A stretch of DNA of 64,000 nt, taken from positions 434,001 to 498,000 of the forward strand of contig NW_026516668.1 of assembly GCF_025766255.1 (NCBI RefSeq), in the 5' to 3' direction. The notes under the pieces were generated by a model. The model searched no databases. It worked only from the letters and a program-made list of their open reading frames with translations, and was not told the DNA's origin. Both the position numbers and the translations under genes were made by a program. Of this stretch, positions 2,020 to 54,600 are shown piece by piece (the first letter of the stretch is position 1; every line of letters begins with the position of its first letter). The stretch comes from Zychaea mexicana (lineage: Eukaryota > Mucoromycota > Mucoromycetes > Mucorales > Lichtheimiaceae).

Positions 2020-2528
2020 GGTCAACTATGGGAACACTTTACAGCGTCGATCACTCTGAGTGATCTTTTCAGTTTGTTTCAACAATTCTTATATTATTTC
2101 ATTGACTTATCAACTAGTTTATTAGCTAAACTTTCAGCATTGAGACTATTATTGATTTCTCAGTGTCGTAAAACACTTTTCACTTGACACTTTCTTTCAT
2201 TTGAAAGTAGTTTTACTATAACAAAAGTCGCCACAAATGATATTGTTGCTAATGCTCACTACTTTCTTAAATCATTATACTTGATAATCCACACACAAAA
2301 CAAACTTAAAACAACCTGTTACAATGTAATAATCATTGGCTAGTTCCTCTGTATTAATTTGATATACTCCAAATATGCACAGGACATATGATATATAGCA
2401 AAAATATAATTCGGTATTTTACAAACTTCATATGCAAAGCTTACAATTATTCAATCAATTACTTTTTATTGTTATCCTCATAAGTCATACAACTACTAAT
2501 ACATTTAATATCCATCCATCATATCTCT
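2020..2528. other. AT-rich spacer between convergent remnants, left arm
   Basis: About 500 bp with no coding signal on either strand. It separates the 3' ends of the transposase remnant and the cargo gene. A transposase catalytic domain would be expected here and is absent. Confidence 0.6.
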
Positions 2529-4873
2529 TTATTCTTGTTCGCTTACAACTTCTTCCTCTTCATCATGTGTATCATCTTCATCATCGGTATCTTCATCATG
2601 TGTATCATCTTCATCATCGGTATCTTCATCATGTGTATCATCTTTATCATCGGTATCTTCATCACTGGTATCATGTTTGTTGCAAAGTGTTTGGAGAGGG
2701 CTGATCCAGTCTTGCATAATAATCGGCTTGGTACTTTTTTTTTGTTTCCACCATGTATAATCTTTCGCATTTTACTTGTTTCGAACGAACTTTTAGAATA
2801 AGATGCTTGAAAGGTGTTTAAGTCCTCTAACATGACCTTTTTAAGTATAAAAACATTACCGATAAGTATATATAATCAGTTTAGATAAAAAATATAAATT
2901 AAAAAAATGACATACGTGAAGTTTGGTAAGACATTGTACTGCGTCGCCTATAACACCGTTCTTGATTTGTAATAATGTTTGCGGATATGTGAAGCTACCA
3001 ATTTCATCAAGACAATATACTTTTTTATCTACTAGGGTCAAGCAATAAATGTAACAAGTAAGACTCATTACTTGGACAATGGTGAGACGGATGAATTGAA
3101 CTTGGGATGGTGTTATGTAGGGCATAGAACGAAGAGTATGATTAAGATGAACTTTGCTAGCAGCCACGGACTTGAGCTTGTCATAGTACAGCTTCGATTC
3201 ATTAGTCGCCGCATCACTAGCAAATTCCCCAGTTATGGCTTCTAACTTGGTCCTATCGTCTATTGTAGATACTAATCGAAGGTCCAAGCGGAGTTTTGAA
3301 TCCATATCGGCATGCTGACTCAACAAACTGTCACCCCTTTAGCAAACTGATTATACATGTTAAATAAAATATTTACAATTTCTTTCACTCTGGCCTTTCC
3401 ATTAATGCCTATATTTACCATTGCAGGAAGTAACTATTGTACTCTCCGAAAAATGACTCAAATATTGGTGACCAATATTTGACGATCAAGCTTTGTTCTG
3501 TACACTGTTTAATATAACTGGATTCTAGCATGTGTGACTTGTGGATGTGTTGCTCCAAACTAAAAAAAACCAGAGTACAACATTATTAATATTATAATTT
3601 TTGAATTCTTTGATTTTCATATAGATAATACGTTACTAACATATGGCGCAGAATATTCTTAACACCTCGTTCTAGTTGATTCTTTGGATCAAACATTGAG
3701 ATATCTTTTAAAGCCTGGATACCAATCCGTTTTCCAGTGATCTTCAACATATATGTCAATATATTATTTAATCATCCACACTATGTTATGCAACACCTTC
3801 CCCCATCCCTAAAAAAGGACCATACCTTGGTCAAATCTGTGATTTGGGTAATGTCAACTTCATATCCGGTGACAGTTGTTTTAAGCTTCTTCATAACGTT
3901 GGATGATAATGATAAATCTAATTTACCAACTTGAGAATCTTGTCCAGAACTTGAAATGTCCAGAATTCCGTTCAATGAAAGACTATCATATCACATTTAT
4001 TAGACAACATTCACAATTTCCAAAATAATTCATACAAAACCCAATAAAGAAATCCATCGACTACCTTTTCAAGTACTTGGATCTATTATCATCACCATTA
4101 AATTGATTTGATAAAGCATATAAATTGCTACCCAAAGTTCCAGATCGTTTAGGTAAAGTAATTTTGTCATGAGCCTAAGTAATTAGCAATAAATCAATTA
4201 CTACTAAGTACATTACAGCCCAGAGGCAAAAAAGACCACTCATATATTCTGTCTAATAATAAAATATATTACCACGAATATAATCTCTTGCGACTTCTTT
4301 TGACGTTTTCTTTGATTATCCTCGATTCTCTTTAATCTTTTCATGGAGCCTCTGTCATTCTAGCACGCAAAAGTTAGATCGATTCATATTTGATATCTTT
4401 ATCTAGTGTTAAAATATTCGCTTCACTTACCGGTTTCTATGCAAAGATTAAAAGACGAATAGGTTAAAATCGTTTTGTCTTCTTTGCATTCATTTATAAT
4501 TACTCTCTTTACAGGCTGTTCAATATTTTATTAATTTTCTAATTTTTAATTTATTTTATATATTTAGTTATTAAGTTTTATTCTTAAATAATAGAAAATG
4601 ATCAATATAATTAGGGGTGGTCAGAGAAAATCTTGAATTTTTGATGACGTTGGTAGCTAGTCATTGAGACGGTAGTCGAAACCCTAGAATGATGGTAATC
4701 ATTCCAAACATTTGCCTACAAATGCCTCAGAAACAGTATTCTTCTTTCTTTACCTTTCGAGCTTTATCTAATAATTCACTTTGCAAAGCAGCCTGCAAAG
4801 ATTCTTGTTGCATACGCAACTTCTCCTTGGAAGCTGTTAATTTTCGCGCTTCTTTTAATATAGAATCTGACAT
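2529..4873 (-). pseudogene. Cargo gene of unknown function, left-arm copy
   Basis: Mirror copy of the gene at 7829-10174, with the ATG at 4871-4873. It shares the same exons and introns and the same frame break at a run of nine identical bases (here T9 near 2739). The one protein-level difference I saw is Ile instead of Thr in the block after LRLDLRLVST. See the right copy for the structure. Confidence 0.7.
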
Positions 4874-5621
4874 GGTTTTCGAAAATAAAAGTAAAAAAGA
4901 TTCAATAAGGAATAGTTTTCTGAGTGTGCATCGGAAAGGAAAAAAAATTGAATGCGCAGGACTTCACGACTTCAAAGGATGCTGATTTCCGATAAACATT
5001 TATAGAACTTTCGTAACAAACAAACGATAGTTTAATATTGTTCTTTGAAACTTATTGATTTATTATTGTCCCTTGATTCACTTTATTGTCTGATTATATA
5101 ATAAACAACATCATGTTCTTTATATATACCTCCAAAATCAAGTCAAGTTCTTAATGGGTTTTTCATAAACTTTATTATAAACATGATAAGAAAACCAGTA
5201 GATATGAATTAATCATCTGAGGCATTGCTAAAAAATATTTTCTTGCTTTGCTAGTTTCCTTTCAAAGTTGGACAAAATTCCCAAATATTCCTACGGATAT
5301 ACCCATAAATATTATACATTTCTGATAGCAAGATCATTTCGAACCACTACATTTAAGTCTTGTGCCACCCTATCTTACCTATTACTGTTGATTATAAACA
5401 AAAAGATTGAAATTAAAGTATGTTGCTAATAAAAGTTACAAGGACTGAAGAGGCAAAAGTCTACCTCCAATCAACATGTCACTCTATTTGTAAAGTTTAT
5501 TGTAATGAGTTGAACATCCAAAATATTATTTCTATTTTACAGCAATGGTAACGAAAGTAAGTCATTGGTTATTCATTTTTTACATCTGGTATTCATAACA
5601 TGCATCAAAGGAACCGGATAG

Positions 5622-5897
5622 TGTTGCAAGAACCAGCCCATTGACCAAATTCAATGGCCACTAATCTAGCAGTGTTCACTTAAAAGTCATCAAACTCCTA
5701 AGCTACTAGCCCACATCAACACGAAGAAAGGAACATGAGCACTTGCAACAGATGGCCATGTGTATCTTTGATACCAAATTATCTCTCGTAGTGCTAGCAC
5801 TACGCCTGTACAGTAACCTGGTATTATGATCCCAATGTTTCTATCTAGGCATACACAACTGTTGCAAGTGCAGTTCTTTCTATTCATCAGTAAGCCA

Positions 5898-5932
<35 letters not shown>

Positions 5933-6162
5933 CATGTAATTCGTTAGAACCAATCGGCAATAAATAAAATAGTCTGATGCAAACAAGAAATTATATATAT
6001 GTACACTTGCCTTCAAATATGTATAGCATCGATGGAATAGTGTTGCATGAACCAGCACATTGACCAAATTCAGTGGCCACTAATCTAGCAGTGTTTACTT
6101 AAAAGTCATCAAACTCCCAAGCTACCAGTCCACATCAACATGAAGAAAGGAACATAAGCGCT
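5622..6162. repeat. Nested ~120-bp direct repeat, left arm
   Basis: A segment of about 120 bp at 5622-5742 recurs at 6042-6162 in the same orientation at roughly 90% identity. Both contain TTGACCAAATTCA and CTAATCTAGCAGTGTT. About 300 bp including the microsatellite lie between them. The right arm mirrors the arrangement. Confidence 0.8.
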
Positions 6163-6308
6163 TGGGAGGACATTCAGCTACATTAGAGTTTTTAAAAGTA
6201 TTTATTTATACATTATTTTATATATAACATAATTTATGATCTATTTTTTTTAACATTTTTATTTTTATTTTTTTTAAATGCTAAGACTTCTAATACATCA
6301 TATGACCC

Positions 6309-6394
6309 CGAAAAGTTGAAAAATAATTAACAATTTTTTATTACTTTTCTTTTTCATAATTTATTATTGAATAATAAAAATAAACAAACAAAAA
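6309..6394. other. Palindrome spacer
   Basis: About 86 bp of unpaired AT-rich sequence separate the two arms. The arm-proximal sequence TGCTAAGACTTCTAATA is matched by its inverse complement on the other side. Confidence 0.85.
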
Positions 6395-6540
6395 AGTCAT
6401 GTGATATATTAGAAGTCTTAGCATTTAAAAAAAATAAAAATAAAAATGTTAAAAAAAATAGATCATAAATTATGTTATATATAAAATAATGTATAAATAA
6501 ATACTTTTAAAAACTCTAATGTAGCTGAATGTCCTCCCAA

Positions 6541-6769
6541 GCGCTTATGTTCCTTTCTTCATGTTGATGTGGACTGGTAGCTTGGGAGTTTGATGACTTT
6601 TAAGTAAACACTGCTAGATTAGTGGCCACTGAATTTGGTCAATGTACTGGTTCATGCAACACTATTCCATCGATGCTATACATATTTGAAGGCAAGTGTA
6701 CATATATATAATTTCTTGTTTGCATCAGACTATTTTATTTATTGCCGATTGGTTCTAACGAATTACATG

Positions 6770-6804
<35 letters not shown>

Positions 6805-7085
6805 TGGCTTACTGATGAATAGAAAGAACTGCACTTGCAACAGTTGTGTATGCCTAGATAGAAACATTGGGATCATAATACCAGGTTACTGTACAGGCGT
6901 AGTGCTAGCACTACGAGAGATAATTTGGTATCAAAGATACACATGGCCATCTGTTGCAAGTGCTCATGTTCCTTTCTTCGTGTTGATGTGGGCTAGTAGC
7001 TTAGGAGTTTGATGACTTTTAAGTGAACACTGCTAGATTAGTGGCCATTGAATTTGGTCAATGGGCTGGTTCTTGCAACACTATC
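6541..7085. repeat. Nested ~120-bp direct repeat, right arm
   Basis: Copies at about 6541-6665 and 6966-7085 share TTTGATGACTTTTAAGT and CTAGATTAGTGGCCA. They mirror the pair in the left arm. Confidence 0.8.
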
Positions 7086-7828
7086 CGGTTCCTTTGATGC
7101 ATGTTATGAATACCAGATGTAAAAAATGAATAACCAATGACTTACTTTCGTTACCATTGCTGTAAAATAGAAATAATATTTTGGATGTTCAACTCATTAC
7201 AATAAACTTTACAAATAGAGTGACATGTTGATTGGAGGTAGACTTTTGCCTCTTCAGTCCTTGTAACTTTTATTAGCAACATACTTTAATTTCAATCTTT
7301 TTGTTTATAATCAACAGTAATAGGTAAGATAGGGTGGCACAAGACTTAAATGTAGTGGTTCGAAATGATCTTGCTATCAGAAATGTATAATATTTATGGG
7401 TATATCCGTAGGAATATTTGGGAATTTTGTCCAACTTTGAAAGGAAACTAGCAAAGCAAGAAAATATTTTTTAGCAATGCCTCAGATGATTAATTCATAT
7501 CTACTGGTTTTCTTATCATGTTTATAATAAAGTTTATGAAAAACCCATTAAGAACTTGACTTGATTTTGGAGGTATATATAAAGGACATGATGTTGTTTA
7601 TTATATAATCAGACAATAAAGTGAATCAAGGGACAATAATAAATCAATAAGTTTCAAAGAACAATATTAAACTATCGTTTGTTTGTTACGAAAGTTCTAT
7701 AAATGTTTATCGGAAATCAGCATCCTTTGAAGTCGTGAAGTCCTGCGCATTCAATTTTTTTTCCTTTCCGATGCACACTCAGAAAACTATTCCTTATTGA
7801 ATCTTTTTTACTTTTATTTTCGAAAACC

Positions 7829-10174
7829 ATGTCAGATTCTATATTAAAAGAAGCGCGAAAATTAACAGCTTCCAAGGAGAAGTTGCGTATGCAACAAGAA
7901 TCTTTGCAGGCTGCTTTGCAAAGTGAATTATTAGATAAAGCTCGAAAGGTAAAGAAAGAAGAATACTGTTTCTGAGGCATTTGTAGGCAAATGTTTGGAA
8001 TGATTACCATCATTCTAGGGTTTCGACTACCGTCTCAATGACTAGCTACCAACGTCATCAAAAATTCAAGATTTTCTCTGACCACCCCTAATTATATTGA
8101 TCATTTTCTATTATTTAAGAATAAAACTTAATAACTAAATATATAAAATAAATTAAAAATTAGAAAATTAATAAAATATTGAACAGCCTGTAAAGAGAGT
8201 AATTATAAATGAATGCAAAGAAGACAAAACGATTTTAACCTATTCGTCTTTTAATCTTTGCATAGAAACCGGTAAGTGAAGCGAATATTTTAACACTAGA
8301 TAAAGATATCAAATATGAATCGATCTAACTTTTGCGTGCTAGAATGACAGAGGCTCCATGAAAAGATTAAAGAGAATCGAGGATAATCAAAGAAAACGTC
8401 AAAAGAAGTCGCAAGAGATTATATTCGTGGTAATATATTGTTATTATTAGACAGAATATATGAGTGGTCTTTTTTGCCTCTGGGCTGTAATGTACTTAGT
8501 AGTAATTGATTTATTGCTAATTACTTAGGCTCATGACAAAATTACTTTACCTAAACGATCTGGAACTTTGGGTAGCAATTTATATGCTTTATCAAATCAA
8601 TTTAATGGTGATGATAATAGATCCAAGTACTTGAAAAGGTAGTCGATGGATTTCTTTATTGGGTTTTGTATGAATTATTTTGGAAATTGTGAATGTTGTC
8701 TAATAAATGTGATATGATAGTCTTTCATTGAACGGAATTCTGGACATTTCAAGTTCTGGACAAGATTCTCAAGTTGGTAAATTAGATTTATCATTATCAT
8801 CCAACGTTATGAAGAAGCTTAAAACAACTGTTACCGGATATGAAGTTGACATTACCCAAATCACAGATTTGACCAAGGTATGGTCCTTTTTTAGGGATGG
8901 GGGAAGGTGTTGCATAACATAGTGTGGATGATTAAATAATATATTGACATATATGTTGAAGATCACTGGAAAACGGATTGGTATCCAGGCTTTAAAAGAT
9001 ATCTCAATGTTTGATCCAAAGAATCAACTAGAACGAGGTGTTAAGAATATTCTGCGCCATATGTTAGTAACGTATTATCTATATGAAAATCAAAGAATTC
9101 AAAAATTATAATATTAATAATGTTGTACTCTGGTTTTTTTTAGTTTGGAGCAACACATCCACAAGTCACACATGCTAGAATCCAGTTATATTAAACAGTG
9201 TACAGAACAAAGCTTGATCGTCAAATATTGGTCACCAATATTTGAGTCATTTTTCGGAGAGTACAATAGTTACTTCCTGCAATGGTAAATATAGGCATTA
9301 ATGGAAAGGCCAGAGTGAAAGAAATTGTAAATATTTTATTTAACATGTATAATCAGTTTGCTAAAGGGGTGACAGTTTGTTGAGTCAGCATGCCGATATG
9401 GATTCAAAACTCCGCTTGGACCTTCGATTAGTATCTACAACAGACGATAGGACCAAGTTAGAAGCCATAACTGGGGAATTTGCTAGTGATGCGGCGACTA
9501 ATGAATCGAAGCTGTACTATGACAAGCTCAAGTCCGTGGCTGCTAGCAAAGTTCATCTTAATCATACTCTTCGTTCTATGCCCTACATAACACCATCCCA
9601 AGTTCAATTCATCCGTCTCACCATTGTCCAAGTAATGAGTCTTACTTGTTACATTTATTGCTTGACCCTAGTAGATAAAAAAGTATATTGTCTTGATGAA
9701 ATTGGTAGCTTCACATATCCGCAAACATTATTACAAATCAAGAACGGTGTTATAGGCGACGCAGTACAATGTCTTACCAAACTTCACGTATGTCATTTTT
9801 TTAATTTATATTTTTTATCTAAACTGATTATATATACTTATCGGTAATGTTTTTATACTTAAAAAGGTCATGTTAGAGGACTTAAACACCTTTCAAGCAT
9901 CTTATTCTAAAAGTTCGTTCGAAACAAGTAAAATGCGAAAGATTATACATGGTGGAAACAAAAAAAAAGTACCAAGCCGATTATTATGCAAGACTGGATC
10001 AGCCCTCTCCAAACACTTTGCAACAAACATGATACCAGTGATGAAGATACCGATGATAAAGATGATACACATGATGAAGATACCGATGATGAAGATGATA
10101 CACATGATGAAGATACCGATGATGAAGATGATACACATGATGAAGAGGAAGAAGTTGTAAGCGAACAAGAATAA
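7829..10174 (+). pseudogene. Cargo gene of unknown function, right-arm copy
   Basis: It reads from ATG 7829 (MSDSILKEARKLTASKEKLR) through about eight exons, including a likely 6-nt microexon at about 8270. Intron 9285-9366 joins FLQW to GDSLLSQHADMD in frame. Blocks include GEYNSYFLQW, KVHLNHTLRSMPYITPSQ and LVDKKVYCLDEIGSF. I associate this pattern with a family of uncharacterised proteins expanded in Mucorales; that is from memory and no function is known to me. After HGGNKKK a run of nine A moves the frame. The alternative frame carries MQDWISPLQT and an acidic DEDTDDEDD tail to 10174, which looks like the original C-terminus. Both arms share the break, so it predates the duplication or was homogenised. 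It converges on the transposase remnant. Confidence 0.7.
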
Positions 10175-10683
10175 AGAGATATGATGGATGGATATTAAAT
10201 GTATTAGTAGTTGTATGACTTATGAGGATAACAATAAAAAGTAATTGATTGAATAATTGTAAGCTTTGCATATGAAGTTTGTAAAATACCGAATTATATT
10301 TTTGCTATATATCATATGTCCTGTGCATATTTGGAGTATATCAAATTAATACAGAGGAACTAGCCAATGATTATTACATTGTAACAGGTTGTTTTAAGTT
10401 TGTTTTGTGTGTGGATTATCAAGTATAATGATTTAAGAAAGTAGTGAGCATTAGCAACAATATCATTTGTGGCGACTTTTGTTATAGTAAAACTACTTTC
10501 AAATGAAAGAAAGTGTCAAGTGAAAAGTGTTTTACGACACTGAGAAATCAATAATAGTCTCAATGCTGAAAGTTTAGCTAATAAACTAGTTGATAAGTCA
10601 ATGAAATAATATAAGAATTGTTGAAACAAGCTGAAAAGATCACTCAGAGTGATCGACGCTGTAAAGTGTTCCCATAGTTGACC
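10175..10683. other. AT-rich spacer between convergent remnants, right arm
   Basis: Mirror of 2020-2528. I see no gene in it. Confidence 0.6.
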
Positions 10684-11487
10684 TTAAGCCGGCTCAAGTG
10701 TCGCTGAAGACTTCTTGTCGTATGGATCTTGTAAGAACAATGAGAGTTCATTCGTTAATATAGGATGTAGGCGTTCAGGTTTTTTAAATTGACTTTGCAA
10801 ATAGGCTTCTTCATCTCGAAATCGTGCACCATATCGCTGAGCGGTCCTTTCTGGAATTCGGAGCATGTGAGAAGCTTGAGCAGCACCTAAAGTTACATTT
10901 TGTATGAGCTCAATGAGTTCAACGATTTGGAAGTATGTATATCGTCTGTTTAGACCTATAAAGTATGGCATCTAAATAACCTAACGTAACTATTATGAAC
11001 TGATAATCTATTCAATTTAACAACATATACCTCTTGGTTTTATTACTGTTTTTTTTTGAGTTTGTTACTACGAGGCCGTCCAGGATTTTTCTTTTTGCTT
11101 GTGTTTGAACTAGATTCAGCTTTTTGTTGCTGAAGAATATTAGGTACGTCGGTTTCTATTTCATAAATTTCATGCTGAAACATGTGTATATTTTATACTG
11201 TTAATCGAATGTTTTTTATTTTTTACCTTCTCTGAATTATTTGGTCGTTTCGCCATTGACAGCAATGAGTATACACTGTCTTTTCCTGCATTGGTCTCAA
11301 TATTCAAAATACGATATAGATCTTCTGCTTCAATGTTTCCTTCCATAATTTCATCAACTTCTAGCTTATCAATATCTCCTATATCGTCTTCGTTGGCATA
11401 CGGTAACTCTGGGTCTTCTATACTCATTTCCTGCTTTCCATCTTCACAAAGCATAGGTGTATAATACTTATTACAGGCAGAATACAT
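10684..11487 (-). pseudogene. Tc1/IS630-like transposase remnant, right copy (no DDE domain)
   Basis: Exon 1 runs from ATG at 11487 to about 11227 (acidic, MYSACNKYYTPMLCEDGKQE). Exon 2 starts at about 11174 (HEIYEIETDVPNILQQQKAE, then a basic GRPRSNK stretch). Exon 3 is 10971-10684 with the HTH. Exons 2 and 3 do not join in frame because the A run at about 11050 is nine long, and an in-frame TAA follows. The protein stops after the HTH and FKKPERLHPILTNELSLFLQ, where Tc1-family proteins would continue into the DDE nuclease. It may still be a DNA-binding fragment of the terminal repeats; that is inference. Confidence 0.7.
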
Positions 11488-38987: not shown

Positions 38988-39024
38988 AACTACCTGGGGG
39001 TCTTTTATTCATCAAGAAAAATTA
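38988..39024 (+). repeat. MULE left end: 9-bp target duplication and terminal inverted repeat
   Basis: AACTACCTG (38988-38996) is followed by the inverted repeat starting at 38997; its 20-bp core TTATTCATCAAGAAAAATTA matches the right end exactly in inverse orientation. Confidence 0.88.
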
Positions 39025-39192
39025 GAAATAAGAAGCGGAGAATAAATGCAACAGAAAGAAGGAAAGAAGTGTATTAAAGCGTATGCATGAAAAGAAACAA
39101 AAGTTAGACAGCTGTTACAAAAGTAAAGAAACGAGTATGGAATAAGATACTTACCTCCCCCCAATTTGTATCTCGTTGGAGTGGCCCTCCAC
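38997..39192 (-). ncRNA. Candidate Fanzor omega (guide) RNA region
   Basis: In TnpB and Fanzor loci the scaffold RNA is usually transcribed from the end of the nuclease gene toward the element end, with the guide read from sequence outside that end. Here 196 bp lie between the Fanzor stop and the left terminus. A perfect hairpin (GAGTGG, 4-nt loop, CCACTC; 39179-39194) overlaps the stop codon. GTAAGTATC at about 39144-39152 could be a donor in a 3'UTR intron. No RNA is proven; the call follows from position and family knowledge. Confidence 0.35.
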
Positions 39193-42100
39193 TCACTCCA
39201 TGACAGGCGCCAAGGCCTGCTCTTCTTCGTCTTCCTCCTCCTCTTCAAACTCGTCGTCGTGGGCATCGTCTAACACATTTTCTCCAGCGGGACGACGCAT
39301 CGACGGTGGTCGCGATCTCAAATTACCAGTTTGGACGTATTGCATGAAGATACGACCAATGTTTCGGGCAGCATTATTATCACGGTCCCACAACTATATG
39401 TATAGATAATGTGAGCTTATGCGCAAGTCGCATGATGCATTATCAAGGCACTGATGTAATAAAACAATCAAATACTAGCTACTTACAGTAGGTACAGGAC
39501 AATGATCGCAGAACTTCAATGGATACACGGATAATTGGGAACCAGCTGGAAATAAGTTTTGGTATATTATTACAACCATTAATATTAGCTATTGAAGCTC
39601 TCTCACTGTTTTACAAACATCTTGTATACACGATAGAAAGTAACAAAGCCTATATTACGTACCAGCGTTTTGACGGTCGTTGCAAGTCGATGTTGGCCAA
39701 AGGTTATGGCCGTCGTCATCCACACACCAGAGCTGCCGTCGGGCATTGTTCCTGTGTCCATCGTCTTCAGCACGTTCGCGGATCCGACGAATTCTCCGCT
39801 TTGTGTGCTCGCGACACACTTGAACACTTCCTGGACGGTCTCGAAATTGACGCGTGTTCGCATCGCAAGCACTGCACACAACACTGGTTCGATACTCATC
39901 GATGAGCATGACCATTACACGTCTTGCTAGAACCGCCCGGAACGTCTACAAAGTTATTTATAATAGAGGCGTCAATTCATAGCAAGGACACTCGCTTCAT
40001 TCGTCACTAATTAACGTTCCACCACGTCTGCCAGATAAATTTTCTTATTTACCTCAACAGGAATAGGTTCAAATCCTTTGAAGGAGGGCTTAAACCTTCC
40101 ATCACCATATGCTACAATACAATTGTCTTCCACTCTGAATCCTGCATGTGCGCGGCGCGGTCGGCGAAACCGGCGGCGGTGAGCTTTGCGTTCGCGTTTG
40201 GAGGCCTTATTGAAGAAAGGGAGAGGTACCTTGAAGCAACCATATTAGCTTTTGCGACTTATCAAAGAAGTACTCATACACAGAAAGATACTTACATCGT
40301 CACGGTGATCCAACCCTATCAATCTGTTGGCAAGATTCTCCAATGCGCTTTTGCGCGCAGAAAAAAGAGTGAGTAACGTTTCCCGGTGAAAGAAATGTTT
40401 GTTAAATTGTTCATGGATGCTATTTTTTTTCAAAAAAAAAAAAAAACTAGAGTGAATACTCATGCCAAAATGATGATCACGGTGTTCCAGTATATATCGA
40501 CATAGCTGAGTAACTTACTGTCTGTGCACGCCACTCAACATTCTGATGTAATTTCGGAAACCTTCCGAGGTAGGCGCTGAAGCCGGATGTCCTCTCAACA
40601 TATCATACACCTCCTGTATCTCCGGGATATCTCGATCCGGATGAGCCTGTCGCTCGACATGAGCATAGCGTGCTCGATTTTTGTTTTCCTTTTGGAGCGC
40701 CCACTTGAACATGGACTGGAACCTGAAAAAGGGTTATGTACAAAATCAAACATGTTGGCATCAGATGTAAAAAGCGCGGACACACGCTCATACTTGCTAA
40801 AAGTAAATATACTGCACGCAGTACTCACTGGTATGTTCTGTTATTTAGCTGATATACGTGCTCTGCTCTCGCTTCAGGTGTTTCGAGCGGCTCAAGAGTG
40901 TCTACAGCAGTGACCAGAGACCGGATGCCTAAAATAATATACAGAATATCTACTTAGATACCGTTACATATTTTGAGAATGATTAGATATATACCTGGGT
41001 CTATGAACACTGTTCGAAAATTGTGAAGCCGCTCTGCATCAAGACCATCTGGCTCTTTGGAGAGATGATACATTCCTCTTCTCCACTGTGTGACGTCAAT
41101 TTCACGAGGAAAACGTTTAACTTGGTTGGAGCTAGAAGGCATATACTCTAACAATAGATTTATGAGATGTCGTCATGACTAAATACATACTTTTAATATT
41201 GCATGCTATGAGGGTACTACCAACCTCCACGCCGCGTTGTCACAGGCCTGCGAAAATGGAACACAATGGCGACACCATCCGTTTCGAATGTGTTATTGAA
41301 GAGTTTGAGCTCGCGGTCTTCTGGGGGCACAACACCTTGACCTGGGCACATTATATTTATAAATGTATATGAGATAGATGAGTTTAGATATAACTATCAA
41401 AAGATACCACTTTGTGACTATTCAAAATGTATACGGAATCTACCTTCGACTGCGTATCGGCAACGTCGCGGCTCTACGTGACCGATATTAAATAGCGACT
41501 CCCAGAAGCCTTCAAGCAGCTCAGGATCTTGCTGTCTGAAAACACGATATGACAAGCAACGTCCACGACCAGGAACGTTATTTGGTCTCTAGATTTATGC
41601 ATCGATGGAAATAAGCCAGTAAATAAACAAATAACATCTTTTAATAACTGGAAACACAAAGAGAGTAAAAACGCATATCATTACCACAATATTATCTGGC
41701 ACTTGTGCAGGGTCTCGCTCGTCCACTTCGCGTACGATGTAATACATAGTTTCAAGGTCGACCGGCATGAATCCAATGCGGTGACTGGCAAGTGGCAGTG
41801 GAGTCCACTTGGGACAGAATTGGAAAGGCTGGGCTTCAAGTGACAGCCAGATATAAAAGGATAGCGAATTCACTAGCATTGCAGGGCCAGATATGGACGG
41901 TCGCTGTACTATGCGTGCGATATTCACGCCGGCATATGCTTGTTCGAATCGTGCAGTGTGTTGGCTAAAAAAGTTGAAATAGTAACACCGTCTTAGTTAT
42001 AACTGTGTGTTTATCTATGTGTTGTATCTATATAATCATCATAACAAATTAAAAAGAAATTATGTGTAATTTCTTACTTGAAATATTGAAGCACCTCAGT

Positions 42101-43642
42101 AAAGATTGCTGCTGGAATTCGTTCAATTAAACGCTGAGTCAAATGAGTTCTGTGCGTTGTGATCAAATTACAGATTTGTTTTGCTATAAGCAGATCACCA
42201 TAAAAAATAGCGGTGAGATATTTTTCAACACTCCAGTATTACCAATTTAAGTAGAAAAGTAAATCATTCTTTTGTTTACCCATGCTAGAGATGCTGATTC
42301 GAAAGGTAAGGTTATGTTCATGGCGCAGATGACTCAGATATGCGACCCATACACGCTTGAGAAAGACAGGAATGTTGGTGCATAGGTGGTTCATGGCATC
42401 TACAAATTTATTTCCTCAGTTAATAACTATTTTTATAGTTCAACAATCATACATAGAGCATGTAAGAATTGCGTGTACACTACACTTACTGGTTTTAGCC
42501 TTTACTGCAAACAGCTCTGCTAATCGAGCCAACAAGGACATTGATAAGTCTTGACGAAGAACAGGAAGATCGTATAACGCTGTTAAGAAAGTCAGTATCA
42601 AACATCTATCATTGTTTTACATTTACCCAGTTTCAAAACGTCATATCGGTATATCTAATACCTTCTCCTGTTTCCGCATTCCGGCGTTGTGGCTGATAAT
42701 GGTTATTGAAGATATCGCGTAGAACGGCGTAGCGGTTTGGAGTCTATTGAAGTCAATAATGTAAAAAACTTGTCAGTGTTGCATGCTCCGCGACATACAG
42801 TACATATTATGCACAATTCATCCCAAGCAACAGAAATTATTCTCACGCGAGCCGGTATAGGTGCCTCTTGCGTTGGATTGGTGATCACCATCCGAAATGC
42901 CGTAGCCCAATACGTTTGATTGTCTAATTCTGGCATGGGTATCTCACCGTTGCTTTCGTATGCAAGCAGAGCATGCAGATTAATCAAGTTCAAGGCGTCT
43001 CTGCGAAGTACTTGGTACCACTCAGCTAACGAACGAAGGTAAGCCTAGCGGTAATATAAGATTGTTTTAGCTTTTCTGTCCAGATAATTATGAATGATCT
43101 TGGTGTCGGCTTTATAAATGGTGTACGAACCCTGTACAGCTCACGATTTTCATTTAATGCTACCCTCAACTTGCATTTGCGACTGGCTAATCGCCATGTA
43201 TTTGCGCGGCCGTAAAACGTGTCGCGAATGAAGTCTGGCTCCGGTTCTATGTAGGAAATAATATAAAGATACAACCATAGTAAGTCTACTATATACATGC
43301 TCATAAAAATTTTATACAGAAGACAAGCGGAAAGACAATATTAACAGTACCTGCTGCTCCTTCTTGCTCCATGTACGCTATTTCGTCATAGGAGTACTCA
43401 TTCTCGGCAAATGATGTAATGTCCGAGCTAGTGTCGTTATCCAGGTCGTCATAGTAGTCATTAACGTTGTCAAAACCAATATTTTCGTCGTCCACATCCA
43501 TCATAGCCGCACCGTCGCTCGCTTCCGAAAAAGCATCAGTGGTTGGGTCATTATCGACGAGTATATTGTCGGTATCAAATGAGTCGGTTGATGCCATAGT
43601 CATATCAGTGTCGCTGTCGTCCACGACACTGATAGACACCAT
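39193..43642 (-). CDS. Fanzor (eukaryotic TnpB-like RNA-guided nuclease), 18 exons
   Basis: Eighteen exons from ATG 43642 to TGA 39193-39195 join in frame at GT..AG borders to about 948 residues: 43642-43351, 43246-43131, 43044-42847, 42743-42662, 42579-42490, 42399-42280, 42183-42078, 41964-41685, 41588-41444, 41341-41225, 41147-40995, 40928-40829, 40722-40519, 40419-40296, 40229-40053, 39945-39663, 39545-39487, 39393-39193 (each within a base or two). A very acidic N-terminus (about 100 residues) precedes a helical region. RuvC-I reads TVFIDPGIRSLVTAV; the Fanzor block CIVAYGDGRF lies at about 40100; then LIDEYRTSVVCSAC and FCDHC supply a zinc ribbon, and LWDRDNNAARNI the RuvC-III Asp. The C-terminus is acidic. 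Fanzor proteins cut DNA using an omega RNA; activity here is inference. No frame break is seen. TATATAAAG lies about 245 bp upstream. Confidence 0.93.
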
Positions 43643-45465
43643 TTTTAGTATTGAGTAAAAAGGTGCAAGGCTTTATGTATATAAAACAATAGTGATAAGA
43701 TAGAAAGAGAGTTATTGGAGAGAAAGTTGTAAGAAGGAGAAAGGAAGACCTTGTTTGAGAGAAGGAGTGCTGTGATGAACGTGGGTTGTGAATAGATAAT
43801 AAGAGAAAAGAGATTGAATAAAAGACAATATGAAATACTGTGAGAGTCAAATATGAGGTGATTTTTTTTGAATGAATTAACAACCCTTTATATACTCTTG
43901 GATATGCTGTCAAGACTTCCGTTTGGATGAACTGATGAATGGATCGGGGCACGCCGGGTTTCGGATGTTTCAAAGATGAAGAGGAATGGTAAGGTTGAGT
44001 TTGGCGGTCATGACAATGAACGTTGCCTTCCGATTGTAAAGAGTCATCTTTGTCTTGATCAGTGTGCTCCTTGTTTGGCGAATTTCACCTTTGTCTGTGC
44101 TGGAATTGGTATCTGCTCTTTGACATTGAACGTGTGACCAACCAATAAAATTTCAGCCTCCACCTGGCTCATTCAAAAAAAAAAGCTCTTTGACAGGTAC
44201 ACTTCGCTCAACTCATATAAGCTAGATTCAAAGGAAGTGCTGACTAACTCGAGAATAGGACAATGTGTATACAATGGTTGGTTCTGAGTTATTCTCGATT
44301 GTGATCCATGTTTGAGAGATTATTGATATGGCGCTAATTATGTCATTTGTGTGTGTGGTGTTCTCTCTACTGCTTTCTAATGGTTACAAAGACGGCGGAG
44401 TGGGATGAGTTGTCCGGATCAATCTCAAAGTAGTGTGGTTTACCACAAGTGCACTATGACTTTGAAAAGGCACCTTTTATAAAAGAAAATTCTTGTAAAT
44501 AATTGATGCTAATACTCACAGGTGACTATTAACAAGAAGATATATCTTTTATGCAAATGATTAACCCATGTGTATATCACCTTTTGAGCATGTGAAAGAA
44601 AGATAGTCGTGCTAGGATTACATGCCACCCACGATTGCCCGCTTAGCAATACTACGGGTGGGGAGCGTGCTGCACTCTAGTCAAACAATTATCAGAAGCC
44701 TCGTGATATGCTGAAAAATGAAAGTGATAAAAAGAGACTTTAGAAGCCCTTGAGAGTGTTGGCAGAATCATACATATCAGTGATTTAAAGATGAAGGCTG
44801 TTACTTCTAAATTTAAACAATTAATTATGCTGATTGAGAGGATTGTGTCTACAGTAATCAGATATGTATGCTTTCTCGTGGACTAAAGTTTTTGACGATG
44901 TTTGGACACTATAGAGGATAGAGGATAATATTACGCGTGCGGTTCTTTTTCAAAAGTTGATGTACAGTATGGAACAATACCAACGTGTATTGCAGGATTG
45001 TATGGGGGAGTTCGTTATTGGAGTCCCGGGAATACGACAAACGTCACCAGCCAAAGTGTTCATTATATACGTTTCTCCAAGTGTTCAAAATATCTTTCTA
45101 TACCTTGTTGTTGGTTTTGAACACTGACAGAGCTGGTTGAGAGCGGGGAATGTTGTGTTGAGGACGTCAATAATCTGTTTGCCATGGTTGCTCCATTGTT
45201 TTCACGAATTCTTGGATCTGCTATCTACACGAGGGACGACAAGAAATATAGAGTAAGATGTTTGTATCAAGCAATATGATAACTGTATATATAACATATT
45301 AAACTATTAGCTAGTAATAAGTTTAGCATGAAATTTAGCATATTGTATGGAATCGTTATGAGTATGAGCAAACAATTATGTATATGCAAGATAAAACAGC
45401 AGCAAATTTTTGGTTTTTATTTGTGGTATCTTCATGCTACAGTATTCATATACGAGCATGATGAC
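43643..45465. other. MULE interior: Fanzor 5' flank
   Basis: About 1.8 kb between the Fanzor start and the Myb gene 3' end. It holds TATA-like sequences for the Fanzor at about 43676-43686 and 43886-43894 (minus strand) and the structured motif at 44625-44661. The 122-residue minus frame at 43605-43973 overlaps the Fanzor start and is not supported. Confidence 0.5.
44625..44661. other. Two-tier stem-loop inside the MULE
   Basis: Outer stem CCACCC (44625-44630) pairs with GGGTGG (44656-44661). Inner stem ATTGC (44634-44638) pairs with GCAAT (44646-44650) around a 7-nt loop. It is GC-rich in an AT-rich setting. No tRNA box pattern is present. It may be a structured RNA or protein-binding site, or chance. 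Confidence 0.35.
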
Positions 45466-46193
45466 TCAGTATTTAAAACTGTACCACTTGAATGATACAC
45501 CATTGCTAGTACGGTGCAATTCTTGAGCAATGTCATCAAAATGATGACCCCTCAAGCGCATGCGGATCAGAGTAACCAGCTCCCCTTGGGTCCAATGCTT
45601 GTTGCGCCGATCACCTACGATGGGACCCCATCGAATAGGATGCAACTAAAAAAAGATATTAAGTTATCCAGCTTTTTATTTATTAATCACCTTCTATTAT
45701 ATAGTCAGTGTAAGAGTAGACGATGATTACTTACATCCATTTTAAGCTGTATTTGCTCTGCTCTTTTAATTTCCCCTTCCACAACTCCTCTGGCATAAAC
45801 GATTTCTCTATGGTTTATCTGGTGACGATAAACCTCCTCACATTCTTCTGGCGGATGATCCACCCGCGAAGTTATTTCGTTCCATGATAAAGGGGGTTTG
45901 GATGCGCGCAGCTTTGCAAGGTAATATCGCTGAGTTGGAGTCCAATGAGAAGGTAACGGTGGCTAGAAATATGCAACATATTATGATAAATTTATAATAC
46001 ATACACGATACCGCAATAGCTCTTTCTGTTTTTCAAATATCATACTCACCTTGTATTGACGATATCGTGCCTTGCAGGCTGAAGGTGTGTGGCGGTTGCC
46101 AATTATTCGCGCAATATATTCCCAAGACGCATGCGGATATTGCTGCTTTTGTTGTATCAAAATCGCGATATCTTGGGCTTCCCATAACGGCAT
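45466..46193 (-). CDS. Myb/SANT-like DNA-binding protein, three repeats (MULE cargo)
   Basis: Exons 46193-46050, 45962-45735 and 45645-45466 join in frame to about 183 residues. Three helix-turn-helix repeats can be read: LWEAQDIAILIQQKQQYPHA...WEYIARIIGNRH, then SHWTPTQRYYLAKLRA...WNEITSRVDH, then KHWTQGELVTLIRMRLRG...FDDIAQELHR. The Trp and hydrophobic spacing fits Myb/SANT. It lies on the same strand between the transposase and the Fanzor, inside the element borders. It may bind element ends or regulate cargo genes, or be a captured host gene; no function is shown. It has no visible domain beyond the repeats. Confidence 0.75.
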
Positions 46194-47158
46194 GGTTGAT
46201 AATGTTTAAATTGACGACGAAGGATCAAGAGGTTAAAGCTATTGTATCAGCATAGACACAAAAACTTAATATATCTGTTTATCTTTTTTGAAGACTCTGA
46301 TATACTACCTGTCTAATTCTTGTTTCTAAATACGCTTCTTTCCCTGTTTAGTGCTTCTTGGTTGATGTGTATTACTATTGCTAATGATGACACATGATCC
46401 ATGCACACTTATGGCTTTGCCTTTGTTGATAATTTAGATAGCGGCGCTATCATTGATCAGTTCACAAATCCCATGTCCCATATTGCAAGTCCAACAGCTT
46501 TATCCGAACAAATATATACCAAGTCCAACCAAGAGTATTAGAAAACAAAATATATGTAATAAGTATCTCTGCTAAATATTTATTTTATTCTTCATTGTTG
46601 ACGAGAGGGACATGCATTTGGATTGATGATTTTTTCTACGACTGTGTATAGCCTTTTCTGTAGAACAATCAATTCTCTAGTTGTGTTGTAGATATGTTTG
46701 ATTTGTTTCTTGCAAATAGATTATCAAGTTGATTTGTCGAGCGTTCATATTCAGCGAGCAGATCGTTTCTATGTTGCCGCTGCTGGTGCTGTGAGGATGG
46801 TGCTAGTTGCATAGATGCTGTTAATGTTGTTGACTAAAGATGATGCTGGTAATGACGATGATGCTGTTGTTGATTGGCGAGGGAAACTTTGGTTTATGAT
46901 TACTAGAATGGTGGTGTTATATGCGCTAAGATATATATGCTTGCATGGTTGGTTACGCTTTTAAAATCTTCACAACTACAAGAACCAATAACGCCATTGC
47001 TATCAGTTTCTTCAAGCTTTAAAGTATACAATGCAGAACTAGCAAAAGATTGATAGGTAACCTATTGCCACAGTACGATCAGCAATTGTAAAAGTAAACG
47101 GACACATACAGAAGTGGTACATACATGATCATCATGGATAGTTATCATCCGGTCAGCT
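46194..47158. other. MULE interior: between Myb-like gene and transposase
   Basis: No gene seen. Contains imperfect GATGATGCTG-type repeats at about 46780-46880. Presumably the 3'UTR of the transposase and promoter of the Myb-like gene. Confidence 0.5.
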
Positions 47159-49017
47159 TCATCTGGTGATTTTTTGCAGGCTTCTCTTTCGTTTGTTAAG
47201 CTTCTCTAGTCGCTGTTGTTTCTTCGACACCAGCCAAAATACGTAGGACTTGAGCACGGTAATCATTTTCAAAAACTGCGTCAACATATAGATTACACGA
47301 TCAGCACGATGATTGCGACTGTATGGAAGATATTTGCGTTTAAGTTTGGAATGCCAGCTTTCGATCAGATTATTTGTATGGAAGGACGCATTCTAAAGAA
47401 TATACAACCGTGCATTATGTTGAAGCGCAAAATAAAGCTAAAACGAGCCTAAAACGTACCTCTCTCCAAGCCTTGCTCCAAAGATGATGCTTAGGATGCC
47501 CAATAGTCCAACACACAGCCATAAAATGCTCATATGTATCCCGCCAATTGTTAACCAAGCCTGCACAAATTCAACGACGGTTTTGCAATTCATCAAAGAA
47601 CCAAGGGCAGAACGAGCTTCATCTCTTCTTTTCTTCGTATCCGCTGTTGACAGAGTAGTTTTGATCTATAACCCAACATATAGAAAAAAGAAGGTTATAT
47701 TGAATATACGATAATGTGGCTAACTAAATGGTACCTTGGACGTGATGTGCTTTTCCCATGCTCTTTTGATGTGCCAATGACACAGAAGAACTTGAACTTG
47801 ATGACCATAAACTGCTCTGATGCTGTTAATTTCAACTGGACTGCAATCGATCATGATCCTTGTTGGTGTGTATTCAATTCTGTCTCGGAGCCATCGAAAC
47901 CATACTTGCAAATTTTCACTATCTTCTTTATCTGTGATCATAAACGCAAGAGGGTAACCTTGTCCAGTAACTGTATGCTTGGCAACGATAGAAAACAGAT
48001 ACGCATCAGCCCGACCACTGATGATAGATTTGCAAGTCTTGTGTGTGGCATCAATACAGATCTCATTTGATTTCTTGAGCAGCTATAAAGCACATATGCA
48101 TCTTAATATACGAACATTGCATTATATTTAAGTATATATCTTTTCTTACCAAAGCTTGTCGTGATGATATCCATGCAACAACAAAAGTAGAATCCGTGAT
48201 ATATTCCAACGTTTGATAACCTTGATCTTTTAAAAAGAGAAGCCACTTGACTACACTTTCTTTATCGATTAAATCTTTTCTTGCTAATCTTGACTGTTGG
48301 TTGGCGATGATATTCATGACATGATGCTGCTTCACACGTAAGGCTTCCGGGAACGGTCCTTCGCCTTCCTCGAGCTGATACCACAGGTTAGCATCTCTAC
48401 AAGTTATCATCATAGTTTTGCTTTACATGTATAGATGATACTTACATCTTGAAGTTGTTTATCAGTCAAACGCAGATGTTCCTGAATTTGATCCCACTCC
48501 AACTTGTTATTGACAAGTTCTTCGATCCATTTACGTGTTTCAGCGGGGAGTTGTGAGCGAGTAGCATTGGTTATCTCGGTAGGGTCATGGTGTTGATGTT
48601 GCCAGTGATATACAAGTTTGATTTTGCCTGAGAATAAGTATTGAATACGGTATCGAGCACGACAATTTACTTTAATAGATGGTTTTGCAAGTCGACGTTT
48701 TTTGATGGGAGCAGGTTCAGTTGAGTCTATGGGCAGAGCAGGGATAGCTGGAGCCGATGTTTCTCTTGAGTGATCACAAAAAAAGTGATACTACGTTCAA
48801 CTGTCCGAGGACGGCCGGTATTGTTTCGGCGTGCATCTGAAGCCTTGGGTACGGAGATGTACTTGTTGTTGGTGATGAAGTTGGCAGGCTGCTTGGGGTT
48901 TTCTTTAACCCACTCGTCAAGTTGTTGCTGGTTGTCAAAAATCTCTGAAACTACTTCGGTAGGGTAGGTGGGAAAGACACGGACAAGGTATCCAAGGCTA
49001 TCAGATGCAGAGGCCAT
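47159..49017 (-). pseudogene. MULE (Mutator-like) transposase, frame-damaged
   Basis: Starts at ATG 49017 (MASASDSLGYLVRVFPTYPT). A FAR1/GCM1-like zinc region follows (a conserved VNCRARYRIQY and HWQHQHH), then the DDE domain: CIDATHKTCKS, MIDCSPVEINSI, LLCHWHIKRAW and NNLIESWHSKLKRKYL. Conserved-looking peptides jump frame by one base at three places: a T7 run (about 48777), near 47555 (before an NWRDTYEHFMAVCW-type block) and at a T5 run (about 47275; the other frame gives ENDYRAQVLRILAGVEETTA). A 51-nt intron could remove the first break. The exon border near 48395-48446 also does not join cleanly. Probably inactive, or the consensus is poor. Confidence 0.82.
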
Positions 49018-49119
49018 TGTTGTAGGTGAGCAATTGACAAAACAACAAAGGTACAGTTGCGACGCGTCGCTGTGGGAACATGAAAAAGTTTTACTCTGTG
49101 ATTGAAAACTTCTCTAACG

Positions 49120-49156
49120 TAATTTTTCTTGATGAATAACGAAACCGAACTACCTG
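49120..49156 (-). repeat. MULE right end: terminal inverted repeat and 9-bp target duplication
   Basis: The inverted core occupies 49120-49139, the element ends at 49147, and AACTACCTG follows at 49148-49156. Confidence 0.88.
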
Positions 49157-49534
49157 TGTGCCACATCACTTCCACCCTATACGCGTTCCAATTCGAGCTC
49201 CGCTTCACTGCACAACTAAACCTCCACGTATCGCAGCCAAAAAAGGTTCAACTCATACTCTCTCCACTTTTGTACATAAGTTTTTACTTCTAAAGCTTCT
49301 TTTGAAAGGTAAATACAATAGTCTGTTAACTTTTAATGAGCCAAAATGTCATTTTGCCTTGTTCATTTCCTGGTTCTTTTTTTGTATAACTCATTGATGT
49401 TTTTGTTCTCCAATGGCTGGAACTTTGTCGCGTTACTGTCGTTTCATCTTGTTTCCCTTGCTTCCTCCTTCATCTTTTGTAAAACCAGCTTTTTCTTGTT
49501 GTATCAAAAGAAAAACAAGACCAAAAAGAGTAGT
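49157..49534 (+). promoter_or_regulatory. SEC31 upstream region
   Basis: 378 bp between the MULE target duplication and the SEC31 ATG. It is pyrimidine-rich close to the start. The insertion therefore sits within or at the edge of the SEC31 promoter. Confidence 0.5.
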
Positions 49535-51665: not shown

Positions 51666-54600
51666 GGAGACCATCGAGACACCCAAACCAGAGCCAGAGG
51701 AAGAGAAGAAGGAGACTCAAGAACAGGATGTCTCTGCTACTGCTGCTGCAGCTGTTGACGAAAAGGAATCCGAACAGACGCAAGAGGTACAGCCTGCTAC
51801 TGAAGGTCATGAGCAAACCACGGAAAAGCCTGTGGGTGAAAAGGCACCCACAGACACGCTTTCGGGACTTTTCCGCTCATCCGATAAGGCGTCTCCCGCC
51901 GAGGACTTTTTCGGGCAGCAATCGTCTGGACAGGCCACTGCCGTCGATACTGCAGCCAGCGGCATAACAGCTACTGATGCTACTGCTTCTGCCGACACCA
52001 CCGCTCTTGGTGCTGCCGCTGCTGCTGCCACCCCGGCTATCGTTGCAGCCCTTCAGGTACCGCTGGAGCTCTACCCCAAGGACAGCTCGGATACCGACCG
52101 CTTGATTACTCGATCGCTCGTCTTGGGCGACTTTAACACTGCTGTTGAGCTTTGCCTTGCTTCCGATCGTCTCTCGGATGCTTTGTTGCTGGCCATATAC
52201 GGTAGCAGCGACCTGTTGGCCCGTACACAAAAGGCATACTTTGAGCGCCAAGCTGCAAAGACATCCTACTTGCGCCTCGTGGAAAACATTGTGAACGAAA
52301 ACCTGTCGGCCATTGTGGACAGCACTTCGCTGGACGAGTGGACTTCCGTCGTCGTCATCCTTTGCACGTTTGCACGCACCGAGGAATTCGGTCCTCTTTG
52401 TGAAAGTCTTGGTGGTCGTCTCGAAGAAGCATGGTCGGCTGCTGTCAAGAACGGCGACGTGGAAAAGGGCCAGCAATTCCGCCGGCACGCAACACTTTGC
52501 TACTTGGCTGCCGGTAATCTTGAAAAGGTGGCTGGTATCTGGATTATTGAACAGGAGGAGGAGAAGCAGAAGGAAATCAAGGAAGAGGGTGCTGTCAACG
52601 CCAGCGGTTCTAGCTTGCAGAACTTGATCGAGAAGGTTACTGTCTTCCGCAAGGCTATCGACTATGAGGACGAGATGCTTGCTGCTGATCAGAGCTCGGC
52701 TGGCGAAACACAACCCGGTGTATATCCCTTGGGTCAATTGTACAGCAAGTACTGTGAGTATGCTGAACTGATGGCTACCCAGGGCAAACTCGACATTGCC
52801 CTGCGATACCTCAACCTCACTCCCAGCGGCTATCGCGATCTCATGTCTGATCGCTTGTCCGTCATCCGCGACCGCGTCTACCGTGCCTGCGTTGGCGAAG
52901 GCAGCTTCGGTCAGCACCGCGTCCCTGCATTCCCATTCGAGCCTACGCCACTCTTGTCTGAAAAGGAAAGAGCAATCCCTGATGCTGGTGCTAACGGTTT
53001 CGAGGGTCAGCATTTGTTCCAGCAACCTATGCAAACCGAAGCACTTCAGCAGCAGCAGCAGCAAACTGCTGCCTATGACGCTTACAAGCCATATGATCCT
53101 TCAGCCAACACAACAGCTGCTCCATTGCAACAGCAGCCTGTGCAGCAGCCACTGCAGCATCAACAACAACAACAACAACAACAGGCGACCTACAACGCTT
53201 ACAACCCGTACGATCAGCCTGCAGCTCCAGCACCTGCACAACAACAACAACAGAACCCTTACGCGCCCATCACCAACCCAATGGGCGCGCCTGCAAACAC
53301 TAATTATGGCTATGGCTATCCAGCTGCACAAGCAGGGGCTCCTGTACCACCGCCACAAACGGGAGCGCCACCCCCGCCACCACCCAAGAATAGGCCCACA
53401 GGATCTGCTGGCGCAAGTCCATCTGTTTCGCATCGATCCGCCTCGGGGGCATGGAACGATCCACCGGTTGTATCTAACGCACACGTGACACGAAGCCCCG
53501 CTGCTGCTCAAGTTGGTCCTAAACGAGTGACTTCTCCCTTCCCTAACCAGCCTGGACCTAGCACATATGCTCCCGCGCCTAGCCAGCAACAGCAACCATA
53601 CATGCAACAGCAGCCTCTAAACAGAGGCATGGGTGCTCCACCACCTCCACCACCTACTGCAACCGCTGTGCCTCCACCCCCTCCACCCATGAACGCCGTT
53701 GCTCCTACCCCGCTTGCCAGACAACAACCACAACAGCCGCCACCACCACCTCCGCAGCAACAGCAACAGCAACAGCAAGGATTCTATGCGCCCGGTCCCC
53801 AAATGAGAGGCCCTGCCACACCTCCACCACCTATGGCATCAATGGCAGGTCCTCCACCTCCACAACAGCAACACCAGCATCCAATGGCTCCCCCGCCTCA
53901 GCAGCAGCAGCAGCAGCAGCAGCCATCACCTTATGCACCTCAACCCATCCAGGCACCGCCTCAACAACCGGGCCCCTACGCTCCTGCTCAACCACAGCAA
54001 CACCCCCCACAACAGCAGATGTTCCGTTCAACGGGTACGCCACCTTTGCAGCAACAGCAGCAGCAACAGCAGCCATCTCCTCGAGCACCTCCTGCTGCTC
54101 CCGCCAAACCTGCTGCACCACCAGCTCCCGAAAAGAAGCGACATCGTAAGTTTAAGATGGAAAAACCGGGTTAATGACGATATTGGCGTTTTGCCGCGTG
54201 GTTAAATATAAAAATAAAAATTCTCTCTCAATGTATAGCCAAGGATGACAGAAGCCACATCCCCGCCGAACAGCGTCCCATTCACCAGATCCTTTCAGCC
54301 GAGTTGCAGCAAGCAAGACAGAGATCTCCTGTAAGTTGCCTGACATATCTAGAGCATTATCAGTGTGTCTGCATCCTCCTCTAATTTTCTGCTTTCACTT
54401 CATGTGAAACTTTGTTCTGTTAGCCTGCTCAAAAGAGAATGCTTGACGACACTGAACGTAGATTGAACACCCTTTTTGAAGAAATGAACAACAGTGAGAT
54501 ATCCGAAGGTGTCGTGCAGCCCATGCTTGCACTTGTACAAGGTAAGAATCGATGAATTCATGTGTGGTATAGACAGATAGACTAATATATATCATTACTA

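Follow-up and report, generated by a model that had tools for sequence, protein, structure and literature searches.

We analysed a stretch of 64,000 nucleotides from the genome of Zychaea mexicana (contig NW_026516668.1, positions 434,001 to 498,000; hereafter the window, with positions counted from its first letter), which holds a mobile element at 38997-49147. Judged from its sequence, this element is a Mutator-like (MULE) transposon that carries a gene for a Fanzor1-type RNA-guided nuclease, and it is a composite of two parts. The anatomy of its relatives in the same genome shows its origin: a Fanzor-Myb element without a transposase was fused to a MULE of 2.7 kb. New here is a one-sided target motif, YTG|NGT, common to the Fanzor insertions. 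This motif sits where one would expect a target-adjacent motif (TAM) on the assumption that a guide RNA runs off the Fanzor end of the transposon.

A composite transposon and its relatives

The features of the element are as follows.

38997..49147: whole transposon, delimited by a 9-bp duplication and a 20-bp inverted core
38988..38996: target site duplication, Fanzor side, AACTACCTG
49148..49156: target site duplication, MULE side, AACTACCTG
38997..39024, plus strand: terminal inverted repeat of the Fanzor-side end, GGGGTCTT and the core at 39005-39024
49120..49147, minus strand: terminal inverted repeat of the MULE-side end, CGGTTTCG and the core at 49120-49139
46600..49017, minus strand: MULE transposase gene (PF10551) with several exons, modelled with uncertainty in its 3' part
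45466..46193, minus strand: Myb-like gene (PF13921, E 1.6e-12), three exons in the model
39193..43642, minus strand: Fanzor1-type RNA-guided nuclease gene, recognized by motif order and D-E-D residues; a heuristic model gives it about 19-20 exons and about 930 amino acids
38997..39192, minus strand: candidate omega/reRNA scaffold, noncoding, from the Fanzor stop to the transposon end, proposed from conservation; the guide would extend below 38997
46357..46466: fusion zone, where Fanzor-Myb sequence stops (about 46357) and MULE sequence starts (about 46466)

The left end of the element begins at 38997 (GGGGTC...) and the right end finishes at 49147. The terminal inverted repeats have a perfect 20-bp core, whereas their outer bases agree at only 3 of 8 positions. 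Allowing up to two mismatches, this core has 48 matches in the genome (50.3 Mb searched, 305 contigs, the window sitting in contig C251) against 2 for a reversed control pattern, which is far above chance. On the minus strand the transposase gene comes first (49.0 to about 46.6 kb), followed by the Myb-like gene (46.2-45.5 kb) and then by Fanzor (43.6-39.2 kb), and the transposase domain matches PF10551 with E 5.2e-8 (33.7 bits, cut-off 27.6). A first-pass annotation of this DNA had described matching termini with a 20-bp inverted core, a perfect 9-bp duplication directly outside both ends and three same-strand genes inside, and had assigned the element to the MULE type. We recovered all of these features, and transposase domain, inverted ends and duplications of about 9 bp are together those of a MULE.

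Searches of the genome with parts of the element gave at least 11 matches to the left (Fanzor-side) end, at least 34 to the right end and at least 15 stretches for the Fanzor half, all counts being lower bounds. The Fanzor half was read as 11 loci (C251, C88, C252, C284, C223, C232, C117, C248, C244, C254 and C274), with a further fragment on C44. It is joined to the MULE half at seven of them (C251, C88, C252, C284, C223, C232 and C244). The C117 copy extends into the MULE half and ends at the contig end; in C248 and C254 the similarity stops within the Fanzor half, at window positions 43091 and 42288. The 150-bp flanks of all 11 loci, searched on both sides for C251, C88+C71, C244 and C274 and on one side for the others, each matched their own place alone in the genome, and the loci are therefore separate insertions. 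No paralogous empty site was found in this genome for the searched flanks. The other end of the C88 element lies on contig C71 (99.8% over 533 bp, zero substitutions, common duplication). Duplications could be read on both sides at five insertions, three matching at 9/9 and two at 8/9 positions.

C251: AACTACCTG, 9/9
C88+C71: AGTAGGCTG, 9/9
C244: CTTTATCTG, 9/9, the outer inverted repeat on the Fanzor side being deleted
C284: CTTCCT(T/A)TG, 8/9
C274: A(C/T)TCCGCTG, 8/9, the end being taken as GGGTC with one G absent

Other copies with the same gene order and 9-bp duplications, which the annotation had proposed to look for, are thus present within this genome. The annotation had also pointed to copies whose borders exclude Fanzor as evidence against a single unit. 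Fanzor-less elements with both ends do exist, at C162, C66, C55 and C182 and three times on C90. They share all or most of window 46466-49147 and have the same right end, and their left end differs, with GAGTTGCTC or a similar sequence preceding the same core. Because of this distinct left end they represent a parental family and are no refutation of the unit. The parental MULE, 2.7 kb long, is also found alone in this genome. Two of the MULE-only sites have 9-bp duplications (CAGCATTTC, 9/9, for C90; CGTTA(C/G)ACG, 8/9, for C55), and at C182 and C162 the right flank is not repeated by the left flank. The three 2.8-kb copies on C90 (131303-134160, 163130-166003 and 183529-186367) have near-identical flanks and the duplication CAGCATTTC, as if one insertion had been multiplied through local duplication.

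The C274 locus, 10-20% diverged, lacks a MULE. It has Fanzor-type ends on both sides, a partial Fanzor gene and the beginning of the Myb-like gene, and its right end starts where window 46357 lies. The fusion origin follows from these two kinds of relatives, since the MULE-only elements have another left end and the element at C274 closes with a Fanzor-type right end at about 46357 and has no MULE. The seven composites group together, with low support, in a tree built from the MULE half. Comparison of the transposase of C55 with that of the window gave 33 differences over 1337 exon positions and 79 over 1072 non-exon positions, indicating constraint.

The Fanzor gene and a candidate guide RNA

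The exon model of the Fanzor gene is heuristic and some of its exon borders are certainly off; residues are numbered according to it. The D-E-D residues are kept (D553, E768 and D870). The Fanzor1 motif, as defined in PMC3627910, is D-X(125,275)-[TS][TS]-XX-[C4 finger]-X(5,50)-RD, and the gene product conforms to it: D553 is separated by 217 residues from TS771, CxxC pairs lie at 775/778 and 858/861 with about 80 amino acids inserted between them, and a WDRD ends at D870. The match to PF07282 (TNB/OrfB zinc ribbon) is weak (E 9.5e-4, 19.7 bits, below the cut-off of 26.3). We identify the gene as Fanzor because of the motif order and of divergent relatives in the same genome. Three such divergent Fanzors, at C262:248800-258799, C1:203800-212800 and C257:280400-289400, share parts of the motif blocks of the window Fanzor. 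At C257 and C262 a Fanzor-side end like that of the window family is retained on the expected side of the gene, 3 and 4 substitutions away from the core; a control gave 0 and 1 matches at 3 and 4 substitutions in 107,400 bases. Directly outside this end lie ATG at C257 and CTG at C262. The same end search found no family-type end at the C1 Fanzor, and no transposase match was found in the C262, C1 and C257 stretches examined around the divergent genes. The C262 stretch contains a pair of long inverted repeats at about 257.6-258.5 kb.

Differences between each copy and the window were counted at first, second and third codon positions of Fanzor (C88 4/2/16, C252 3/3/12, C223 11/3/19, C232 12/6/23, C284 3/4/24, C244 24/14/45, C117 8/6/31, C248 48/47/66, C254 13/10/16, C274 66/61/86). 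Third positions are in excess with p<0.05 in nine of the ten copies, the exception being C254 (p=0.31); all these comparisons use the window sequence as reference and are not independent. At the codon level this pattern shows purifying selection on Fanzor. The gene had been annotated as intact, which for Fanzor itself holds only on the heuristic model; the transposase frame of the window, however, is interrupted.

The Fanzor stop codon and the end of the element are 196 bp apart. Within this interval, positions 39090-39192 differ little from the window in C117 (1/103), C254 (1/103), C244 (0/103), C248 (1/85) and C274 (5/103), compared with 231 of 1144 sites in the introns of C274. The orientation of Fanzor and a conserved 3' stretch reaching the transposon end agree with an OMEGA-type guide layout and make this interval a candidate for the RNA scaffold. 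A post-stop block, TGGGG-N-GAR-GTAWGT on the Fanzor strand (window 39148-39163), recurs in C257 and C262 and looks like a splice donor. At 39112-39154 on the minus strand, GTAAGTATC...TTGTAACAG form an intron-like pair of splice signals after the Fanzor stop, the donor side of which recurs in C257 and C262.

A one-sided target motif and its explanations

Alignment of the insertion flanks revealed the motif, which in the window is the following feature.

49154..49159, minus strand: target motif YTG|NGT (5'-ACNCAR on the Fanzor strand), a shared flank motif and the predicted TAM

The Fanzor-side flank ends in YTG at all nine readable insertions (background 0.0385). The MULE-side flank of Fanzor-bearing insertions has GT at +2,+3 in 7/7 readable cases (background 0.0586), and on that side the duplication ends in TG in 7/7 and in YTG in 6/7, C284 having ATG. 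Information content is highest at duplication positions 8-9 and at +2,+3 of the MULE side (1.7-1.8 bits), followed by position 7 (0.8-1.1 bits) and +1 (0.54 bits). Among six MULE-only left-end insertions, with duplicate flanks counted once and with C21 and C27 known by their left end alone, YTG occurs once (p=0.002). When both sides are verified, it is present at 5/5 Fanzor-bearing and 0/2 MULE-only insertions (p=0.048). Thirteen right flanks of MULE-only or unclassified ends, duplicates again counted once, include four with TG (p=0.005) and two with GT (C250 and C263; p=0.0005). Ends without a terminus, such as C239 and C5, were left out of the flank counts. YTG also occurs at two truncated MULEs (C250 and C263) and two solo right ends (C77 and C201), all four being unclassifiable, and TG borders the divergent Fanzors of C257 and C262.

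TnpB elements have the layout that is proposed here, with a motif at one side of the target and a guide derived from the flanking DNA, and those of the IS200/IS605 and IS607 groups combine a transposase with an RNA-guided nuclease. On balance we lean towards a mechanism in which a composite MULE-Fanzor is moved by the MULE transposase, a guide is produced off the Fanzor end, and Fanzor cuts empty sites whose repair adds the element. The MULE transposase, from what is known of its family, would move the whole unit and make the observed 9-bp duplications. The Fanzor gene ends against the transposon end. An RNA from the 3' side of the gene is predicted to cross this end and continue into host DNA, and each insertion would in that way make its own guide. 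On the Fanzor strand an empty site would read 5'-ACN-CAR-N6-target-3', and insertion would split it. In the occupied allele CCCC-CAR would precede the guide-matching flank, the motif being broken; at the other end the motif would be intact and the target truncated after 9 nt. Where the site is empty, on a sister, on a homologue or after excision, both motif and target would be retained. By analogy with TnpB, Fanzor most likely cuts such empty alleles; the element would then be restored or added when the break is repaired from the occupied copy.

A stronger version, which we put forward tentatively, is that of a eukaryotic DDE transposon turned into an RNA-guided homing element: YTG|NGT would be the TAM of Fanzor, insertions would persist only where the nuclease hits the empty and not the occupied allele, and the MULE fusion would have made the element self-mobile. 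If so, the motif would be imposed by selection through Fanzor and not by the transposase.

Several observations weigh against the mechanism that we favour. The transposase frame of the window is interrupted near 48.78 kb; it is retained there in the six other composites covering the place, several of which have indels elsewhere, and all ten further MULE copies aligned near this position also differ from the window at the interrupted run, C263 with an additional difference close by. Compared with the window, the modelled Fanzor exons of C284 have no indel and those of the other nine copies 2-19 listed indels, some of them large, so that the Fanzor gene of many copies is probably damaged. No homologue of a 943-amino-acid Fanzor draft was found in the protein collection searched, and two Fanzor drafts matched none of the solved structures (PDB, phmmer). 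Folding of the candidate RNA compared with shuffled sequences gave no signal in four tests (z 1.64, 0.13, 0.05 and -0.49), and no Rfam family matched it. The motif set is small, and within it the registers of C252 and C274 were adjusted by one base, C252 being placed via a 10-bp duplication with the one-base shift picked to fit TG. Two unrelated right-flank positions, 27 and 30, reach 0.83 and 0.71 bits (n=7), and the duplications at the ends of C257 and C262 are not checkable. Finally, because the composites cluster in the MULE tree, the lineage of the transposase can be told apart from the presence of Fanzor only in part.

The last point bears on the main rival explanation, in which YTG|NGT reflects where the transposases acting on Fanzor-type ends prefer to insert, Fanzor being retained for another reason or as cargo. 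Some MULEs do have target preferences (MuTAnT, TA microsatellites; from the part of PMC4486113 consulted). The composites form one group in the tree, the motif is also found at C250 and C263, truncated MULEs of unknown type, and an old habit of the transposase could explain the TG of C257 and C262 equally well. However, MULE-only left-end copies mostly lack the motif even though their transposase region is only 4.7-6.7% from the window (C162, C66, C55 and C182; 7.8-10.2% for C90), the composites being at 0.2-4.2% from the window and up to 5.8% among themselves. The motif is also one-sided although two similar ends are used, and C274 has it without a MULE. We regard this explanation as serious, if doubtful.

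It is very improbable that the motif is an artefact of how the ends were defined, TG being part of the element and the duplication 7 bp long. TG does precede the G run in the seven left ends first read, but it also lies beyond the MULE-side end at 7/7 sites, where it is followed by NGT outside any element sequence. In addition, the 9-nt outer end is as long as that of MULE-only ends, whose 9-bp duplications have no TG (C90 9/9, C55 8/9).

The Myb-like protein had been suggested as a possible third partner, and could be a required component such as a DNA-binding guide for the element. We consider this very unlikely. The gene has two Myb Pfam matches and C274 has part of it, but among the eight copies covering it, it is full in C251 and C117 only, absent in C284 and truncated in five composites by a common deletion:

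44621..45573: segment deleted between the same two breakpoints in C88, C223, C232, C252 and C244, taking out the 3' end of the Myb-like gene

Copies truncated in this way were amplified, and in C117 the gene has no codon-position bias (6/6/4 differences of 184 each). On its sequence record the gene is dispensable and no required partner, since it is truncated or lost in six of the eight copies. The proposal that the element moved as one unit is upheld, by the joined halves at seven loci; that of the Myb-like protein as a third partner is not supported. An insert of about 330 bp adjoins the 3' end of the Myb-like gene at C117 ~51890-52220. A reading in which the three genes lie side by side by chance, or are separate insertions nested in one another, has a negligible probability: MULE-only elements and a MULE-less Fanzor element do occur, but this reading is already contradicted by the composite loci, seven of which, with different flanks, have the same halves joined between like ends and, where both sides are readable, 9-bp duplications.

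Elsewhere in the window, positions 1646-11057 form a near-perfect inverted duplication with arms at 1646-6306 and 6396-11057 (about 100% complementary, 89-bp spacer). The arms are low in GC (about 31-34%) and a short open reading frame, which looks like a helix-turn-helix, is mirrored in both. The explanation is either a mobile element that was duplicated as a palindrome very recently or an artefact of assembly.

Relation to known Fanzor systems

The Mucorales also include Parasitella parasitica. The protein PpFz1 of this mycoparasitic fungus is likewise a Fanzor1 (PMC11423790, consulted in part); its TAM, given there as 5'-ATN, differs from the ACNCAR predicted for the window family, the drafts of which had no PDB match by phmmer. 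The closest description comes from the consulted sections of Bao & Jurka 2013 (PMC3627910), the only open-licence paper found that names both Fanzor and MuDR. There, ROr-4, PBl-3 and MCi-4 are Fanzor1 elements of the MuDR superfamily from Rhizopus oryzae, Phycomyces blakesleeanus and Mucor circinelloides. Compared by description only, they share with the window element the Fanzor1 cargo, MuDR-type inverted ends and 9-bp duplications. In contrast to it, they are stated in those sections to encode no MuDR transposase, whereas the window element has a fused transposase gene, with the parental MULE and a MULE-less relative (C274) both in the same genome. No report of a transposase-encoding MULE-Fanzor was found in the open-licence literature by titles and abstract starts, most subscription papers lying outside this scope.

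According to the sections consulted of Saito 2023 (PMC10432273), SpuFz1 (Spu-1) has a conserved CA before the 5' repeat and a TAM of CATA. As in the window element, a CA is conserved beyond the repeat on the upstream side of the nuclease. The RNA of SpuFz1 comes from the interval between nuclease stop and 3' repeat, which corresponds to the place of the candidate RNA in the window element. Unlike the latter, Spu-1 belongs to another transposon type and contains no transposase in that description. The reRNAs of insect-virus Fanzor1 run about 15 nt past the duplication, with a predicted scaffold that includes the terminal inverted repeat and target site duplication (Yoon 2023, PMC10711439, in part). 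IS200/IS605 and IS607 TnpB elements (for IS607, the same partial source) resemble the proposed working of the window element in combining transposase and RNA-guided nuclease, in a flank-derived guide and in a motif at the other side of the target. They use tyrosine or serine recombinases, in contrast to the DDE/MULE-type transposase and 9-bp duplications found here.

The purpose of RNA-guided cutting by Fanzor is stated as unknown in the part of PMC10432273 consulted. The Z. mexicana genome offers a natural experiment in this respect: composites occur there beside the transposase-only parent and a Fanzor element that has no transposase. The family predicts a guide RNA that crosses 38997, ACNCAR as the TAM and self-immunity through motif loss, which makes the job of Fanzor testable. 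A MULE-Fanzor encoding its own transposase would be a self-contained system for transposition with and without the nuclease.

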